Positions 57,763 through 63,892 of a DNA stretch of 64,000 bases are shown here, piece after piece; the first letter of the stretch is position 1, and each line of letters starts with the position of its first letter. The translations under genes were made by a program, and so were the position numbers. Location of the stretch: contig NZ_JAJTTF010000014.1 of the NCBI RefSeq assembly GCF_021341785.1, forward strand, positions 1-64,000, given 5' to 3'. The DNA comes from Microbacterium sp. Au-Mic1. Lineage in GTDB: Bacteria; Actinomycetota; Actinomycetes; Actinomycetales; Microbacteriaceae. The notes beneath the pieces were generated by a model, which saw nothing but the letters and a program-made list of their open reading frames with translations, did not search any database and was not told the origin of the DNA.

Positions 57763-58729
57763 TGCCCGTGCGGGACTCGGCTGGGGTCTTCTCGGCGTCG
57801 TGGCCTTCTCGTTCACCGTGCCGTTCACGCGGGTCGCCGTCGGCGGTCTGCCGCCGCTGTTCATCGGATCCGGCCGGGCCGTCGTGGCCGCCGTCCTCGC
57901 GGGGTTCGCCCTCGCCCTCACCCGGCAGAAGCCGCCGACGACAGCGCAGTGGCTCAGGCTCGCCATCGTCGCGGGTGGCGTCGTGGCGGGGTTCCCGCTG
58001 CTCACCTCCTTCGCGCTCACGACGGCGCCGGCAAGCCACGGTGCGGTCGTCATCGGGTTGCTCCCCGCCGCGACCGCCGTCGCCGCGGTGCTGCGCACGG
58101 GGGAGCGCCCTGCGTGTTCGTTCTGGCTCTTCGCCGCGCTGGGAGCGGTCGTCGCCGTCGCCTTCGCGGCGCTGCAGAACGGCGGGCTCGGCGAACTCCA
58201 TCCGTCCGATCTGCTGCTGTTCGGCGCCGTGCTCGCCGCCGCGGTCGGCTACGCGGAGGGCGGGCTGCTCGCGCGGGAACTCGGCGCGTGGCAGACCGTG
58301 TCGTGGGCGCTCGTGCTGTCGGCGCCGGTCATGATCGCGCTCGCGTCGGTCGCGCTCGCGGGCGAACCGCTGCAGGCCACGCCGGTGCAGTGGCTCGCCT
58401 TCGCCTATCTCGCCGTGGTGAGCATGTTCCTCGGCTTCTTCGCCTGGTACCGGGGTCTCGCGATCGGGCCCATGGCGCAGGTGAGCCAGATCCAGCTGGT
58501 GCAGCCCGTGCTGAGCATCCTCTGGGCAGGGCTCCTGCTGCACGAGCAACTCGGCTGGGCGACCATCCTCGGCGGACTCGCCGTCATCCTGTGCGCCGGA
58601 CTCGCCGTGCGCACCCGCCTCCCTCCGCGTGGTCACCGTCGGCCAGGGCCAGGGCCAGGGCCAGGGAGGCGGGCGACGCGGAGGGAGGAGGGCCCGGAGC
58701 GAGATGTCAGCGCCGGGGGCGCAGGGTGA
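57716..58729 (+). CDS. EamA/DMT-family transporter
   Basis: 337 aa, ten membrane segments in two EamA repeats (LGWGLLGVVAFSFTVPFTRVAVGGLPPLFIGSGRAVVAAVLAGFAL; GAVLAAAVGYAEGGLLARELGAWQTVSWALVLS). Probable exporter of amino acids or metabolites. TATCCT (57705-57710) ends 5 nt before the ATG, so likely leaderless. The C terminus has a GPGPGPGP tail from four CCAGGG repeats and overlaps the convergent DHA2 gene by 23 bp. Divergent from MocR. Confidence 0.86.
   Translation: MKDQSSVIEAPHQALSARAGLGWGLLGVVAFSFTVPFTRVAVGGLPPLFIGSGRAVVAAVLAGFALALTRQKPPTTAQWLRLAIVAGGVVAGFPLLTSFALTTAPASHGAVVIGLLPAATAVAAVLRTGERPACSFWLFAALGAVVAVAFAALQNGGLGELHPSDLLLFGAVLAAAVGYAEGGLLARELGAWQTVSWALVLSAPVMIALASVALAGEPLQATPVQWLAFAYLAVVSMFLGFFAWYRGLAIGPMAQVSQIQLVQPVLSILWAGLLLHEQLGWATILGGLAVILCAGLAVRTRLPPRGHRRPGPGPGPGRRATRREEGPERDVSAGGAG
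58643..58666. repeat. Four CCAGGG hexamer repeats
   Basis: Four exact CCAGGG units in the 3' part of the EamA gene, read as (GP)n. Unit length is six, so changes in copy number would keep the frame and only vary tail length. Confidence 0.9.
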
Positions 58730-60098
58730 GTGGCGCGGCGATCGCGCCAGCGGCCGCAACGGCGGCGGCACCGGCGAACGCCGCCGAGAACCCGGATGCC
58801 TCGCCGTTCGCGGCGCCGACGGAGCTCGACACCGCGGACAGCACCGCGAGGCCCAGTGCTGAGCCGACCTGATAGCTCGTGTTGACGAGCCCCGAGGCGA
58901 CGCCCGACTCCGCGACGGGGGCACTCGCGATCGCCGTGCTGAGTGACGGCACGAAGGCGAAGGCCATGCCGGCCGCCGCGACGAGCGAAGCCGGCAGCAC
59001 GTCGACGAGGTACGAACCGCCGGGGCGTGCGAAGGACAGCCACAGGGCTCCGACTGCGAGCAGCGCGAACCCGATCGTCACCATGGGCAGCGTTCCCCAG
59101 CGAGCGGCGAGGCGCGGGGCGACGACGGTCATCCCGACCACGATGAGAGCCGTCATCGGGATCAACGCGGCACCGGCGGCGAACGCGGAGGCACCCAGCA
59201 CGTTCTGCAGGTGCAGGTTCAGGAAGAACCACATGGGGATCCAGGCGCCGCCGAGCAGCAGCTGGGCGAGGTTGGCGCCACCGAGCAGGGGCGTCCGCAG
59301 CAGGCCGGGGCGCAGCAGCGGCTCCGCCGCGCGGAGCTGGCGGATCGCGAAGGCGATGAGGAGGGCCACGCCTACGGCGAGTGGAGCGATCGTGACGGCT
59401 TCGGCCCAGCCGGCTTCCGGAGCGCGGACGACCGCGAAGACGGTGAGCGCGAGGCCGGTCGTGCCGGTCACGGCGCCGAGGATGTCGATGCGGCCGGTGC
59501 TGCGCGGCGAGGGCCCGAACGCGCGAGGAGTCAGTGCGAGGATGACGAGCGCGATCGGCACCGTGACGTAGAAGACCCACGGCCAGCCGAGGTACTCGGT
59601 CAGCACGCCGCCGAGGAAGACGCCGGCCGTACCGCCGATGGGTGCCGCCGCCCCATAGACCGCGAACGCCCGGGGCAGGTGCGGGGTGCCGCCGAAGGTC
59701 GCCATGAGCAGCGTCAGCGCCGCCGGCGCGATGAGTGCCGCACCGGCGCCCTGCACGGCTCGCGCGGTGATCTCGATCGCGGGATTCCCCGCCAGCCCTG
59801 CGGCCACGGATCCGGCGAGGAGGAGCACCCATCCGGTCGTGAACATCCTCCGCGCGCCGAAGAGATCCGCGAGACGCCCGCCGAGCAGGAGCAGCCCGCC
59901 GAAGGCGATCACGTAGGCGTTGAAGACCCAGGACAGCGCGTCGGGGGAGAAGCCGAGGTCGCGACGGATGTCCGGCAGCGCGACGCCGATGATCGACGTG
60001 TCCATGATCACGACGAACTGCGCCGCTGCGATGAGCGACAGGGCGAGGCCGCGTGGCGCAGTGCGTGCGCGGGCGACGGAGGGGGTGGTGGTGGACAC
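58707..60098 (-). CDS. MFS efflux transporter, DHA2 family (14 TM)
   Basis: 463 aa. Motif C-like and motif A segments: LSLIAAAQFVVIMDTSIIGVALPDIRRDLGFSPDALSWVFNAYVIAFGGLLLLGGRLADLFGARRMF and RAVQGAGAALIAPAALTLLM, then 14 membrane segments as in QacA-type drug exporters. GTG start at 60098 with GAAAGGT upstream. The 17-nt ATACCCCCCGGGGGTAT box lies 56 bp upstream, so it may respond to copper. Upstream on the same strand is the amine oxidase gene. Cargo unknown. Confidence 0.87.
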   Translation of the reverse strand: MSTTTPSVARARTAPRGLALSLIAAAQFVVIMDTSIIGVALPDIRRDLGFSPDALSWVFNAYVIAFGGLLLLGGRLADLFGARRMFTTGWVLLLAGSVAAGLAGNPAIEITARAVQGAGAALIAPAALTLLMATFGGTPHLPRAFAVYGAAAPIGGTAGVFLGGVLTEYLGWPWVFYVTVPIALVILALTPRAFGPSPRSTGRIDILGAVTGTTGLALTVFAVVRAPEAGWAEAVTIAPLAVGVALLIAFAIRQLRAAEPLLRPGLLRTPLLGGANLAQLLLGGAWIPMWFFLNLHLQNVLGASAFAAGAALIPMTALIVVGMTVVAPRLAARWGTLPMVTIGFALLAVGALWLSFARPGGSYLVDVLPASLVAAAGMAFAFVPSLSTAIASAPVAESGVASGLVNTSYQVGSALGLAVLSAVSSSVGAANGEASGFSAAFAGAAAVAAAGAIAAPLTLRPRR

Positions 60099-60146: not shown

Positions 60147-60177
60147 AACGGGAATACCCCCCGGGGGTATTCCCGTT
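60147..60177. promoter_or_regulatory. CsoR-type palindrome (ATACCCCCCGGGGGTAT), box 1
   Basis: AACGGGAATACCCCC (60147-60161) pairs perfectly with GGGGGTATTCCCGTT (60163-60177) around one C. The centre ATACCCCCCGGGGGTAT (60154-60170) matches operators bound by copper-sensing CsoR repressors (ATACCC...GGGTAT). It lies between the DHA2 exporter start (60098) and the copper amine oxidase stop (60242). It could also end amine oxidase transcription. A near-copy is at 63155-63171. Confidence 0.65.
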
Positions 60178-60241
60178 CCTGTGTCGTCCCCGTCAGCGGG
60201 GCCTGTGGCGTGCGCTGGCGGGGACGACTCGAAAGTGGGGG

Positions 60242-62242
60242 TCAGTGACCGCAGGTGCAGGCGTCACCGCCGCCGCAGCAGGCGGATCCGGATCCGGTCG
60301 CGGCGTGCGCCTGCGAAGACTCGGGCACGTCCATGCCGGGGTTCTGATCGAGGAAGCCGTACGGGCGGAACGCGAAGCCGGCGGTGTCGACGGGCATGAT
60401 CGGCCAGTCCTCGGGGCGCGGGAAGTGCGTGAGTCCGAACGTGTGCCAGAGCACGAGGTCGGCGCCATCAGGGCCGTCCAGGGGCGCGTCGCCCGCGGAG
60501 TACTCGGGAAGGCCTGACCCGCCCTGGTGCGCGTTCGGATAGCGGCCGGCGGGCCACAGCTCGCCTTCGCGGTGCGCGGTGGCCCAGAGGTGCTTTGTCG
60601 CGAACGCCGCGCGCGCCGCGACCGAGGAGGCCGGGTCCGCCATGAGCAGCGCGGTCGGCTGCGGCACGAGCTGATACGCGGTCGCGCGGCCTACGGCGTT
60701 CGTGTGCGAGGCGCTCTGCACCTCCCAGACCCGGGCGACCGAGGTGTCGGCGTCGCGCTGCGCCGCGGACTCGGAGCCGAGCGCGGTCTCGGTCCAGCTG
60801 AACGCGTTGCCGAACGGGTTCTCCGGGCCCATCGGCACGCGCTGCGCGTCGACCTCGACGAGACGGTTGTCGGATCCGTCGACCGCGACGTCCAGCCGCG
60901 CGCAGAACAGGTGCTGGTGCACGGGGGCGAACACGCCGGGGGCGAGCTCGGTGGCGTGACGCTGCGGGACACCGGGTTCGCCGGCGCCCACGAACACGAT
61001 GCCCGTGGCCTTCGCGATCACCTCGATCGTGCCGTCCAGGCCGAAGTTCCAGTAGAAGCCGTAGTCGTAGTTGCCGATCGTGGAGAAGTACGAGACGACG
61101 AAGCGGCGCGCCCGGCGCACATCGGAGCGGCCCTCGAGATTCGTATGCTTCCAGAGGATCCCGGTGTCCTCCTCGTGCATGCAGATGACGTTCGGGATCC
61201 GCACCGGGTGCCCCTGGTCGTCGGCGACATAGCCGTCCAGGTAGCGGATCACGCCGAGGCAGTCGCAGCCGAGCTCGAGGTGGTTCGCGTTCTTGCCGAG
61301 CAGGTATTCGCCGGCGTCGAAGTAGCTGATCCAGAAGCGACCCGGTGCGGTGTCGCCGTAGGGGACGACCATCTCCGGCACGCTCGCACGGTTCAGCACC
61401 GGCCGGCCGTCGAACGTCACGTCGTGCAGCACGAGGCCCTCGCGGGCGTTGAAGCTCACCCGCATCGACCAGTTCTCCCACTCGACGAGGGATCCGGTCA
61501 CGGAGAAGCTCGGCCCCTCGGGCTGGACGATCTCGATCGGCTTGAGGGACGTGCGCGCCTCGCCCTGCACCTCGGGGTAGTAGTTGCCGTGTCCGGCGGG
61601 CACGGGGACGTCGCCGATGTCCTCGACGCGGATCACGCTGTTCGACGTGAGGTCGATGTGCACGATGAGCCCCTCGACCGGGTGCGCCCAGGGCGAGTCG
61701 TTCTCGTCGTAGCGCAGGAACGTGAGCGATCGGATCACCCGGCGCCCGACCTCGTCGGCGCGGCCCGTGTAGCCCGGGGCGAGCGGCCCGCAGAAGGCGA
61801 GGTCGATGTGCTCGGCGAGTCCACGGCGCTCCATCGCGGCGCGCCATTCCGGGGAGGCCTTGGCGATGGACTCGGCGCGCTCGTACTCCTCGAAGAGGTA
61901 CTGCGGCTGACCGTAGGGCGGGGCGTCGTTCGGCACGCGTTCGGTGCGCAGCACCTCGCCGCGGGTGATCGAGACCACGACCTCGGTCGCGACGCCGGTC
62001 GTGGTCTCGAGCAGGGTGGCGTCGATGCGGCGGTCGATCGGGGCGCCGGGTGCCCAGGCGGCGAGCTCGGCCCGCGTCGGCTCGTCCGGCAGCAGCATCG
62101 GCACGCGCACGGTGTCGCCGAGCAGGCCCGCTGATGCGAGGATCGCGCGGGCGGCGGCGATCTCGGGCCCGGTGAGGGGATCCAGCGGATGCGGCGTCGG
62201 GATGGCGTCGAGCGTGATCGGCTGCGGGGCGTGGTGGGGCAT
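60242..62242 (-). CDS. tynA: Copper- and topaquinone-containing primary amine oxidase
   Basis: 666 aa. Oxidises primary amines such as tyramine or phenylethylamine to aldehydes with release of ammonia and H2O2. Y392 in GNYDYG is the topaquinone precursor, D309 (SYFDAGEY) the base, and H442, H444 (VHQHLF) and H605 (LTHFPRPEDWP) the copper ligands; positions track the Arthrobacter enzyme with an offset of about +11. No signal peptide. The C-terminal 14 residues are Cys/His-rich (SACCGGGDACTCGH), not typical of the family. AGAGG before the ATG. A TetR operator lies at 62263 and a CsoR-type box past the stop. Confidence 0.92.
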   Translation of the reverse strand: MPHHAPQPITLDAIPTPHPLDPLTGPEIAAARAILASAGLLGDTVRVPMLLPDEPTRAELAAWAPGAPIDRRIDATLLETTTGVATEVVVSITRGEVLRTERVPNDAPPYGQPQYLFEEYERAESIAKASPEWRAAMERRGLAEHIDLAFCGPLAPGYTGRADEVGRRVIRSLTFLRYDENDSPWAHPVEGLIVHIDLTSNSVIRVEDIGDVPVPAGHGNYYPEVQGEARTSLKPIEIVQPEGPSFSVTGSLVEWENWSMRVSFNAREGLVLHDVTFDGRPVLNRASVPEMVVPYGDTAPGRFWISYFDAGEYLLGKNANHLELGCDCLGVIRYLDGYVADDQGHPVRIPNVICMHEEDTGILWKHTNLEGRSDVRRARRFVVSYFSTIGNYDYGFYWNFGLDGTIEVIAKATGIVFVGAGEPGVPQRHATELAPGVFAPVHQHLFCARLDVAVDGSDNRLVEVDAQRVPMGPENPFGNAFSWTETALGSESAAQRDADTSVARVWEVQSASHTNAVGRATAYQLVPQPTALLMADPASSVAARAAFATKHLWATAHREGELWPAGRYPNAHQGGSGLPEYSAGDAPLDGPDGADLVLWHTFGLTHFPRPEDWPIMPVDTAGFAFRPYGFLDQNPGMDVPESSQAHAATGSGSACCGGGDACTCGH

Positions 62243-62262
62243 CGTCGACCTCTGCGGTTTAG

Positions 62263-62278
62263 TTGAGCGATTGCTCAA
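62263..62278. promoter_or_regulatory. TetR-type operator TTGAGC-N4-GCTCAA, site 1
   Basis: TTGAGCGATTGCTCAA is a 16-bp inverted repeat (6+6 arms) 21 bp before the amine oxidase ATG. A matching site, TTGAGCGTTCGATCAA, is at 63177-63192, on the other side of the TetR gene. The pair suggests that the TetR regulates both genes. Confidence 0.75.
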
Positions 62279-62358
62279 GAAACGGGTTGGCTCGATGATA
62301 GGCCGCGCAGGGGCGCGGGCGCAACGGGCGGATCCGCGCGCCGTCACGGGGTGCAGCG

Positions 62359-62445
62359 TGTGACGATCGGCGCAGCGTGTGGCGATCAGCACACGGATCG
62401 GCGCCATTCCTGTGCTGATCGTCGCGGAGTGCGCCGATCGTGACA
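62359..62445. repeat. Nested double palindrome (CGATCnGC family, REPIN-like)
   Basis: Outer arms TGTGACGATCGGCGCA (62359-62374) and TGCGCCGATCGTGACA (62430-62445) pair at 15 of 16 positions. Inner arms GCGATCAGCACA (62382-62393) and TGTGCTGATCGTCGC (62411-62425) pair with a 3-base bulge. Two forward then two inverted units, the same plan as 2184, 7147 and 29668. Between the TetR stop (62469) and the amine oxidase promoter, likely a terminator of TetR. Confidence 0.7.
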
Positions 62446-62468
62446 CGGCGTGGGGTGGCTGTGGGCCC

Positions 62469-63053
62469 TCAGGTGCGCCAGGGGTGCAGGATCGCGGCGA
62501 GCACGCGCAGGTGCGTGGCGGCGTCCGCCGGCTCGGCGACCTCGACGATCTGCTGCCCGTACGTGATCGCGCGCAGGAGTGCCAGCACGTCGTCGAGTGG
62601 AGTGTCCGCCCGCAGTTCGCCGTCGGCGACGGCCTGTTCGAGTGCTTCGGAGGTCTCCGTGCGCCAGAGCGGGATCGTCGGAGCGGACGCCTCGGCGGTG
62701 GGCGCGATCGAGGCGAGGCGCCCCCAGAACCCCACCACGACATGCGCTTCGGTGCGCGTGGTGGCGTCGACCGGTAGCACCTCGCGCATGATCGCCTCCA
62801 GGCGTGCGAGCCCGCGCAGGCCTTCGGTCGCCGTGCGGATCCGCTCCTCGGTACGGCGGGTGACTTCGGCCGCTGCGGCGCGGATCACGTCGTCGAAGCC
62901 GTCGAAGTAGTGCCACAGGGACCCGACGGCGACGCCCAGCTCGCGCGCCACGGCCCGCGAGTTCACCCCGTCGTGGCCGTCGCGGGCGGCGACGGCCAGC
63001 AGCGCCGCGGCGATGTCGCGCCGGCGCGCATCGTGATCGACGACTCTGGGCAT
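62469..63053 (-). CDS. TetR-family regulator of the amine oxidase region
   Basis: 194 aa. HTH at about 8-50 (ARRRDIAAALLAVAARDGHDGVNSRAVARELGVAVGSLWHYFDGFDDVIRAAA), then a TetR ligand domain. CAGGAT (63060-63065, minus strand) ends 6 nt before ATG 63053, a leaderless start. Two TTGAGC-N4-GNTCAA palindromes, upstream of the amine oxidase and of the membrane protein, flank this gene and are its likely sites. Ligand unknown; an amine is plausible. Confidence 0.85.
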   Translation of the reverse strand: MPRVVDHDARRRDIAAALLAVAARDGHDGVNSRAVARELGVAVGSLWHYFDGFDDVIRAAAAEVTRRTEERIRTATEGLRGLARLEAIMREVLPVDATTRTEAHVVVGFWGRLASIAPTAEASAPTIPLWRTETSEALEQAVADGELRADTPLDDVLALLRAITYGQQIVEVAEPADAATHLRVLAAILHPWRT

Positions 63054-63154
63054 GCGTCCATCCTGGCGCAGATTCCGCGATGGCCGTCCGCGCATCCGGT
63101 GGCGCGCGGATGGGATCCGGCGCCCCCGGTCCCCGATCGGTCGCCGAGATCCGG

Positions 63155-63171
63155 ATGCCTCCCGGGGGTAT
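63155..63171. promoter_or_regulatory. CsoR-type box 2 (imperfect)
   Basis: ATGCCTCCCGGGGGTAT matches box 1 (ATACCCCCCGGGGGTAT, 60154-60170) at 15 of 17 positions. It lies 35 bp before ATG 63206 and 5 bp ahead of the second TetR operator. Two of its left-arm positions break the palindrome, so binding may be weaker. Confidence 0.5.
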
Positions 63172-63176
63172 TGTTT

Positions 63177-63192
63177 TTGAGCGTTCGATCAA
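63177..63192. promoter_or_regulatory. TetR-type operator TTGAGC-N4-GATCAA, site 2
   Basis: TTGAGCGTTCGATCAA shares 13 of 16 positions with site 1 at 62263. It ends 13 bp before ATG 63206 and would overlap the promoter of the membrane protein gene. Confidence 0.7.
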
Positions 63193-63205
63193 TAACACTG
63201 TTCGG

Positions 63206-63892
63206 ATGCTCCACACGGCAGCGACGGTGCTGATGATCGGATCCGCGATCGCGGCGGCGGCGTGCTGCCTCGGTGCCGGGCGCGTCGTGCCCAGCGCGGT
63301 GCCGTGGCAGGCGCGGCAGAGCGCCGTGGTGATGGCCCTCGGCATGGTCGCCTTGTGTGCGGGCGGCCACGACGCCCGCATCCCGCTGCTGGTCGCGGTC
63401 TCGGGGATCGTCTCCGCGATGCTGGGCGTGGCGGGAACACGCGGGCGGACGCACGCCGACGCCTGCTTCCACCGCGCGCTCGGCGGCGTGGTGATGGCGG
63501 TATGCGCTCTGGCGATGCTGCGCACCGAGGTCGTCACGGGCGCGAATCCGGGCTCGACCGGCGGCGTCGCCGCGGCGACGGCCGCGGGCCCGGGGCATGC
63601 CGGTCACGGCGGGATCGTGCCGCTGTCCGTGGTGGCGGCGGCCGCAGTCGCCGTGCTGCTCGGGCTCATGCTCGTCGCGCGGGTGCGGCACCGCGCGGTT
63701 CTCGGCCGTGCCGCAGCGGTCGGTGCTCGCGCGACAGCGCGCGTCGTGGCTGTCGCCGCCGGTGGCGCGTCTTCCGGTCGGGCGGTGACGCGGGGGAGCG
63801 GGGTGCTCAACGGGTGGATCCTGCTCGAGGCGGAGGGCGCGGCGATGGCGGTGTCCATGGTCGTGATGGGCGCGATGGTGCTCGTGATCTGA
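63206..63892 (+). CDS. Multispanning membrane protein of unknown function
   Basis: 228 aa with about six hydrophobic segments (starting at residue 4) and a loop GPGHAGHGG with two histidines. The C-terminal LLEAEGAAMAVSMVVMGAMVLVI is Met-rich. Weak resemblance to DUF5134-type proteins. ATG 63206 is chosen because the frame further upstream runs through the operator boxes. Both the CsoR-type box 2 and TetR site 2 lie within 52 bp upstream, linking it to the amine oxidase. Confidence 0.6.
   Translation: MLHTAATVLMIGSAIAAAACCLGAGRVVPSAVPWQARQSAVVMALGMVALCAGGHDARIPLLVAVSGIVSAMLGVAGTRGRTHADACFHRALGGVVMAVCALAMLRTEVVTGANPGSTGGVAAATAAGPGHAGHGGIVPLSVVAAAAVAVLLGLMLVARVRHRAVLGRAAAVGARATARVVAVAAGGASSGRAVTRGSGVLNGWILLEAEGAAMAVSMVVMGAMVLVI

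Follow-up and report, generated by a model that had tools for sequence, protein, structure and literature searches.

A copper amine oxidase module with TetR-type operators and a neighboring exporter with a CsoR-type box in Microbacterium: probably two regulons side by side

The stretch of DNA analyzed here (the window) is the first 64,000 bp of a contig of Microbacterium sp. Au-Mic1 (NZ_JAJTTF010000014.1), and it lies within contig C5 of that genome (G000 below), which comprises 4,011,690 bases in 20 contigs. Near the end of the window lie genes for a DHA2-type MFS exporter, a copper amine oxidase and a TetR-family regulator, and, divergent from these, a gene for a small membrane protein (Table 1). 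Four short sites accompany these genes, two copies of a copper-type box (boxes 60154 and 63155, named after their first positions) and two TetR-type sites. The original prediction took all four to belong to one regulon that may couple amine use to copper supply. From a comparison with 366 genomes of the genus, we consider it likely instead that two independent regulons lie next to one another, one a TetR set that includes the amine oxidase and the other a copper-type set to which the DHA2 exporter belongs.

Table 1. Genes and sites at the amine oxidase locus (positions are those of the window)
Feature	Position	Strand	Basis or remark
DHA2-type MFS exporter	58707..60098	-	Pfam MFS_1 1.7e-48; NCBIfam efflux_EmrB 1.1e-56, under its cut-off; boxed orthologues
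Perfect 31-bp inverted repeat, candidate DHA2 operator	60147..60177		Holds CsoR-type box 60154-60170
Copper amine oxidase, phenylethylamine-oxidase-like	60242..62242	-	Pfam Cu_amine_oxid (PF01179) 8.7e-148; NCBIfam PRK11504 above its cut-off
Amine oxidase Cys/His-rich C-terminal end CCGGGDACTCGH	60245..60280	-	Codons read in sequence
TetR-type operator (predicted), amine oxidase promoter	62263..62278		Exact TTGAGC-N4-GNTCAA; conservation
TetR-family regulator of the module	62469..63053	-	Pfam TetR_N + TetR_C_6; start 63053 set by alignment
Imperfect repeat ATGCCTCCCGGGGGTAT	63155..63171		Probably no copper operator; right half overlaps likely promoter element
TetR-type operator (predicted), membrane-protein promoter	63177..63192		Directly 5' of probable -10 (63194-63199)
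Small membrane protein, family weakly DUF5134-like, invariant Cys/His/Met	63206..63892	+	Family alignments

All four sites are present where they had been predicted, and the gene content is also as claimed, with Pfam matches for the DHA2 exporter, the amine oxidase and TetR; the membrane protein has no Pfam match at E 0.001. The box, ATACCCCCCGGGGGTAT, is exact at 60154-60170 and agrees at 15 of 17 positions at 63155-63171, and with up to three mismatches allowed these are its only two places in the window, against 0.02 expected from shuffles. The two TetR-type sites are the sole exact occurrences of TTGAGC-N4-GNTCAA in the entire genome. When one mismatch is allowed, the pattern is found genome-wide at 20 forward and 16 reverse places, versus 35 and 41 for a reversed-pattern control; such loose matches number fewer than in the control and are background, so it is conservation that carries the argument for the TetR sites.

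Module amine oxidase loci were gathered by way of the membrane protein, which is matched in 72 of the 366 genus genomes (its own included), and this gave 43 distinct loci in Microbacterium. A TetR site with no more than one mismatch lies within 120 bp upstream of the amine oxidase gene in every one of the 43. Just upstream of the membrane-protein gene such a site is present in 32 of 32 loci (26 of 26 scanned at 0-1 mismatch without use of the gene start, plus six of six others), and 25 of the 26 scanned loci have the second TetR site too, the last (L132) being cut short. The TetR protein of the module is 70-74% identical in six relatives. A family search with the membrane protein yielded 37 relatives that are named as Microbacterium, except for two metagenome-assembled genomes named as Actinomycetota bacterium; the fetched flank includes the amine oxidase in 29 of these 37 loci, and two more have the TetR gene but run into a contig edge. 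In 30 family loci the 300 bp upstream of the amine oxidase contain no copper box (up to two mismatches), nor was one found beside this gene in the 37 named loci. Seven of the further one-mismatch TetR-pattern places in G000 were looked at, among which three are in clear coding frames, C6:79249 is undecided, and C13:251171, next to another TetR gene, is a different palindrome (the remaining two are taken up below). By this comparative evidence the two TetR sites are one conserved pair, the predicted operators of an amine oxidase/TetR/membrane-protein module in Microbacterium.

Box 60154 keeps different company. It forms the core of the perfect 31-bp inverted repeat, with 55 bp between the box and the DHA2 start, and within it TACCCCCCGGGGGTA (60155-60169) is a TAC-X9-GTA inverted repeat with G-tracts. 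This is the rule of the type 2 operators of CsoR in Streptomyces lividans, which front csoR, copZA1 and copZA2 and have the consensus ATATACCCCTNAGGGGTATAT according to the passages of PMC3902906 drawn on here. Of the genus genomes, 42 carry orthologues of DHA2 (E 1e-125 or better), at 43 places in all, the closest being the 96% identical protein of G151; 37 of the 43 places (identity at least 56%) were examined, and upstream sequence was available for 36. A box lies within 260 bp upstream in 33 of the 36 (at 0-1 mismatch in 31), and the other three (L243, L260 and L103) are downstream of a boxed YHS-like gene or a boxed gene for CopX, our name for a protein of copZ-CopX-copA clusters that has no family match. 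Among DHA2 paralogues at 43% identity or less, the box is present in two of 20. More distant DHA2 orthologues (about 70% identity or less) have copZ, CopX, CopA or CopB-type neighbors in 14 of 22 fetched regions, one of which (L262) has merely a distant ATPase with CsoR genes, and eight of the 22 have no copper-type neighbor within the stretch fetched. Two or three tandem boxes, with starts 23-39 bp apart, are present at the DHA2 or cop promoters of L096, L252, L253 and L256.

A scan of the whole genome, in which the central three bases of the box were left free, found five places at 0-1 mismatch, namely box 60154, C13:308675, C16:220404, C16:220438 and C19:141697. The two boxes on C16 front a copZ-like gene (HMA, 1.6e-13), CopX and a CopA-like ATPase; downstream of C13:308675 is a His-rich CopB-like ATPase; and C19:141697 fronts a Met/His-containing open frame that is followed by a DUF305 gene (1.2e-44). 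Since these other boxes front copper genes, box 60154 would belong to the same copper-gene operator set. At two mismatches there are box 63155 and C13:376149. The latter falls within a long open frame, so box 63155 taken alone lacks significance at the genome scale. The TAC-X9-GTA rule of S. lividans holds for box 60154 and for those of the copZ gene, the CopB-like gene and the DUF305 cluster; unlike the situation there, a DHA2 exporter belongs to the Microbacterium set, one TAC is broken in box 63155, and the CsoR-family protein differs in its ligands (below). We read box 60154 as being of canonical CsoR type, as had been proposed, and as an operator of DHA2 and not of the amine oxidase.

The original prediction called for a CsoR in the genome, and one CsoR-family gene is present in G000 (C18:111190-111429, locus L012; PF02583, E 3e-22, the sole match in the genome, and 5.9e-23 in a second search), but its ligands are Cys-His-His (YCMDII..NHLRTHV) and not the Cys-His-Cys set of the usual copper type. 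The protein falls under the NCBIfam cut-offs for RicR (62.9 vs 175 bits) and for RcnR (40.1 vs 138), and RcnR likewise has Cys-His-His ligands. We surveyed 31 CsoR loci in Microbacterium and read the sequence in 19 of them: 11, from other Microbacterium genomes, are Cys-His-Cys members with a box in the locus for ten, and eight are Cys-His-His members with a box in the locus for none. Genomes G000, G357, G371, G005, G100 and G040 have a single CsoR-family match, with scores like those of the Cys-His-His class (the sequence was read in G000, G357, G371 and G100), and DHA2 boxes are present in three of these (G000, G005 and G100). Chain 3aai, the CsoR of what we take to be Thermus thermophilus, is a distant relative (E 4e-11) that has the same aligned Cys, His and His (YC..., and HLKDHVA vs HLRTHVA), and this makes copper sensing by the G000 protein plausible. 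An engineered FrmR, E64H, is reported to bind Zn/Co through Cys-His-His (PMC5016687).

A repeat similar to box 63155 is kept in eight genomes (the window's own and L108-L114), where ATG, ATC or GTT at the left is followed by CCTCCC. In place of the left TAC the window has TGC and its seven relatives have TGC, TCC or TTC, so that none of the eight has TAC there; the right GTA is kept in seven of eight, and the repeat departs from the TAC-X9-GTA rule. S. lividans CsoR needs TAC/GTA, and it did not detectably bind a half-site or a site with TAC and GTA swapped; the variants in these passages have both ends changed or one half removed, and a one-sided base change is not among them (PMC3902906). 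In 22 of 37 other distinct membrane-gene promoters, all unboxed, GGT[CA]T stands exactly 12 bp upstream of the TetR site, and in the near clade GGTAT stands 10 bp upstream of it, with the probable -10 also about 2 bp further downstream. Given this fixed place in unboxed relatives, the right half of box 63155 is best read as a promoter element, and the 63155 repeat is probably not a copper operator, contrary to its prediction as a shared copper box. One alternative to two independent regulons is that 63155 is a weak, lineage-specific CsoR-type site, by which the membrane protein of the Microbacterium azadirachtae clade only would be doubly controlled, by amine through TetR and by copper through CsoR. 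Its position and CCTCCCsGGGG core are kept in the eight genomes, a Cys-His-His CsoR-family protein might tolerate another left half, and one-sided changes lie beyond the published variants just cited; set against the absent left TAC, the binding behavior of S. lividans CsoR and the promoter-like right half, we think this unlikely.

All eight genomes retain CCTCCC ahead of the membrane-protein promoter, for no known reason. The probable -10 ends six bases before the start codon, with similar spacing in relatives, and because of this short distance the membrane-protein message is probably leaderless.

Nineteen genomes have both the DHA2 exporter and the membrane protein. The two are within about 13 kb on one contig in G000, G151, G216, G217, G310 and G361, far apart on one contig in G005, G211, G223, G274, G280 and G294, and on different contigs in G099, G116, G210, G270, G275 and G276; in G215 DHA2 is on the same contig as the amine oxidase. 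In G270 the contig that carries DHA2 stops next to the box, and the order AraC, FrdA, LysR, DHA2 is that of the window. In the tree the linked DHA2s fall in one 11-row clade (100/99) along with those of G302, G144 and G355, which have no amine oxidase in the fetched DHA2 region (that of G355 has MurQ and NagK). Direct adjacency of DHA2 and the amine oxidase was seen in G000 and G151 only, where the two genes are on the same strand and separated by 143 and 156 bp, respectively; in the five other linked genomes MurQ, usually with NagK and RpiR, intervenes and is on the strand opposite DHA2. In five close relatives (L134, L135, L138, L140 and L142) LysR adjoins the amine oxidase without DHA2, the matched regions being 35-190 bp apart, and in G357 (L185) EamA and MocR lie between LysR and the amine oxidase. 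A recent insertion of DHA2 beside the amine oxidase was also considered, and is weakened by the presence of DHA2 within about 13 kb in G215, G216, G217, G310 and G361. The placement of DHA2 is now read as an inherited neighborhood that appears to have been rearranged in the M. azadirachtae group.

This bears on a second alternative, in which the DHA2 pump is part of amine metabolism, gains expression by read-through from the amine oxidase gene, and exports amine, aldehyde or a copper-binding product. The common strand and short distances in G000 and G151 would suit it, as would the nearness of DHA2 to the module in one clade, but the oppositely oriented MurQ in the other linked genomes, the copper-type neighbors of the more distant DHA2 orthologues and the 31-bp repeat between the two genes, which could stop read-through, make it rather improbable. 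The single regulon of the original prediction, in which CsoR and TetR together would govern the amine oxidase, the exporter and the membrane protein and thereby match copper supply to amine use, appears very unlikely, for although the membrane-protein promoter has repeats of both kinds and the clade's DHA2 stays near the module, the amine oxidase has no copper box in the surveyed loci, DHA2 has no exact TetR site in the window and lies far from the module on one contig in six genomes that have both, the 60154 box goes with DHA2 orthologues of which many are elsewhere in the genome, and in relatives outside the near clade the membrane gene of the module has no box.

Several observations also weigh against two independent regulons. 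In all seven placeable genomes of the window's clade DHA2 is within about 13 kb of the module, which common descent explains. The sole CsoR-family protein of G000 differs from the canonical copper type, which leaves the copper response as something we infer. The TetR site (0-1 mismatch) was not seen in 28 family loci outside Microbacterium, which makes the operator a genus trait on the evidence in hand, and six of the 37 named membrane-protein loci (L205, L206, L209, L217, L219 and L220) have neither an amine oxidase nor an orthologous TetR gene. The one-mismatch places C11:137035 and C11:406901 are intergenic, and further TetR targets are possible. Finally, box 63155 is similar in its eight genomes despite differing sequence further upstream, and so may have some function. 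Separately, the membrane-protein homologues at L205, L206 and L209 lie beside MurQ (with NagK in two of the three), and their fetched flanks contain neither amine oxidase nor TetR.

Two independent regulons nevertheless agree best with the DNA itself, in which each operator set is found with its own gene partners and the two do not overlap except at the degenerate 63155 repeat. The TetR protein would bind at 62263-62278 and at 63177-63192, repressing the amine oxidase gene at the former and the divergent membrane-protein gene at the latter, and would be released by an amine or by a product of amine oxidation, a ligand that we infer. The DHA2 gene would be repressed through the 60147-60177 repeat by the CsoR-family protein until copper rises. 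DHA2 would then stand beside the amine oxidase through inherited neighborhood and local rearrangement, not through shared operators, and the 63155 repeat would not be a working copper operator.

Amine use and copper may yet be tied together in the proteins. The closest solved chain to the amine oxidase, aligned over nearly its full length, is the phenylethylamine oxidase 1av4 (both 1av4 and 1rjo are presumably from Arthrobacter globiformis), and the region of the topaquinone (TPQ) motif, NYDY, is present (TIGNYDYGFYW aligned to 1av4). Unlike the solved A. globiformis chain, which is aligned as ..DVPANPSQSGSHC, the Microbacterium enzyme has a longer Cys/His-rich tail. We surveyed this tail in 33 amine oxidases (the 30 best family-search loci, the window's included, and three further G000 copies). 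All 33 have 3-14 Cys/His after an NPxxDxP motif, versus the 0.6-3.3 that the remainder of the protein would predict, in a sequence that is very variable among them, and 42 of the 43 amine oxidases of module loci in Microbacterium end in CxCx[HR]; L143 was rejected as a tail exception because the contig ends within its frame. Each of the four copper amine oxidases found in G000 (E 1e-100 or better; also C5:120284, C17:53514 and C18:164085) has a Cys/His-rich tail.

In the membrane protein W34, Q35, Q38, M47, C87, H89, R90, M97, C100, E210, M214 and M221 are invariant in two alignments. Its predicted fold is helical, with moderate confidence (predicted local distance difference test, pLDDT, 76.9; predicted template modeling score, pTM, 0.57), and the model has no match in the PDB better than E 1; copper-storage proteins among its weak fold matches were given no weight. 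DUF5134 (PF17197), whose function is unknown according to Pfam, gives weak matches for seven of 29 family members (best E 0.0038) and none at E 1 for the window's own protein, which therefore lies outside that model. The Cys, His and Met residues would suit metal handling. It is conceivable, though we hold it only tentatively and think it rather doubtful, that the amine oxidase tail captures copper for its own active site and that the TetR-controlled membrane protein supplies or holds that copper, without CsoR. If so, an amine signal would switch on the enzyme and its copper supply together, and the coupling would be at the protein level.

How bacterial copper enzymes obtain their copper while free copper stays low is open in many cases. 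Our search of the open-licence literature found nothing on a DHA2 exporter in a copper-box gene set, and nothing on a TetR-controlled copper amine oxidase of this module's kind or on its Cys/His tail. The TetR module offers a testable case, an enzyme with a metal-binding-like tail together with what would be a co-regulated membrane protein, and the regular presence of a DHA2 exporter in the copper-box gene set of one genus would widen the reach of CsoR-type control.

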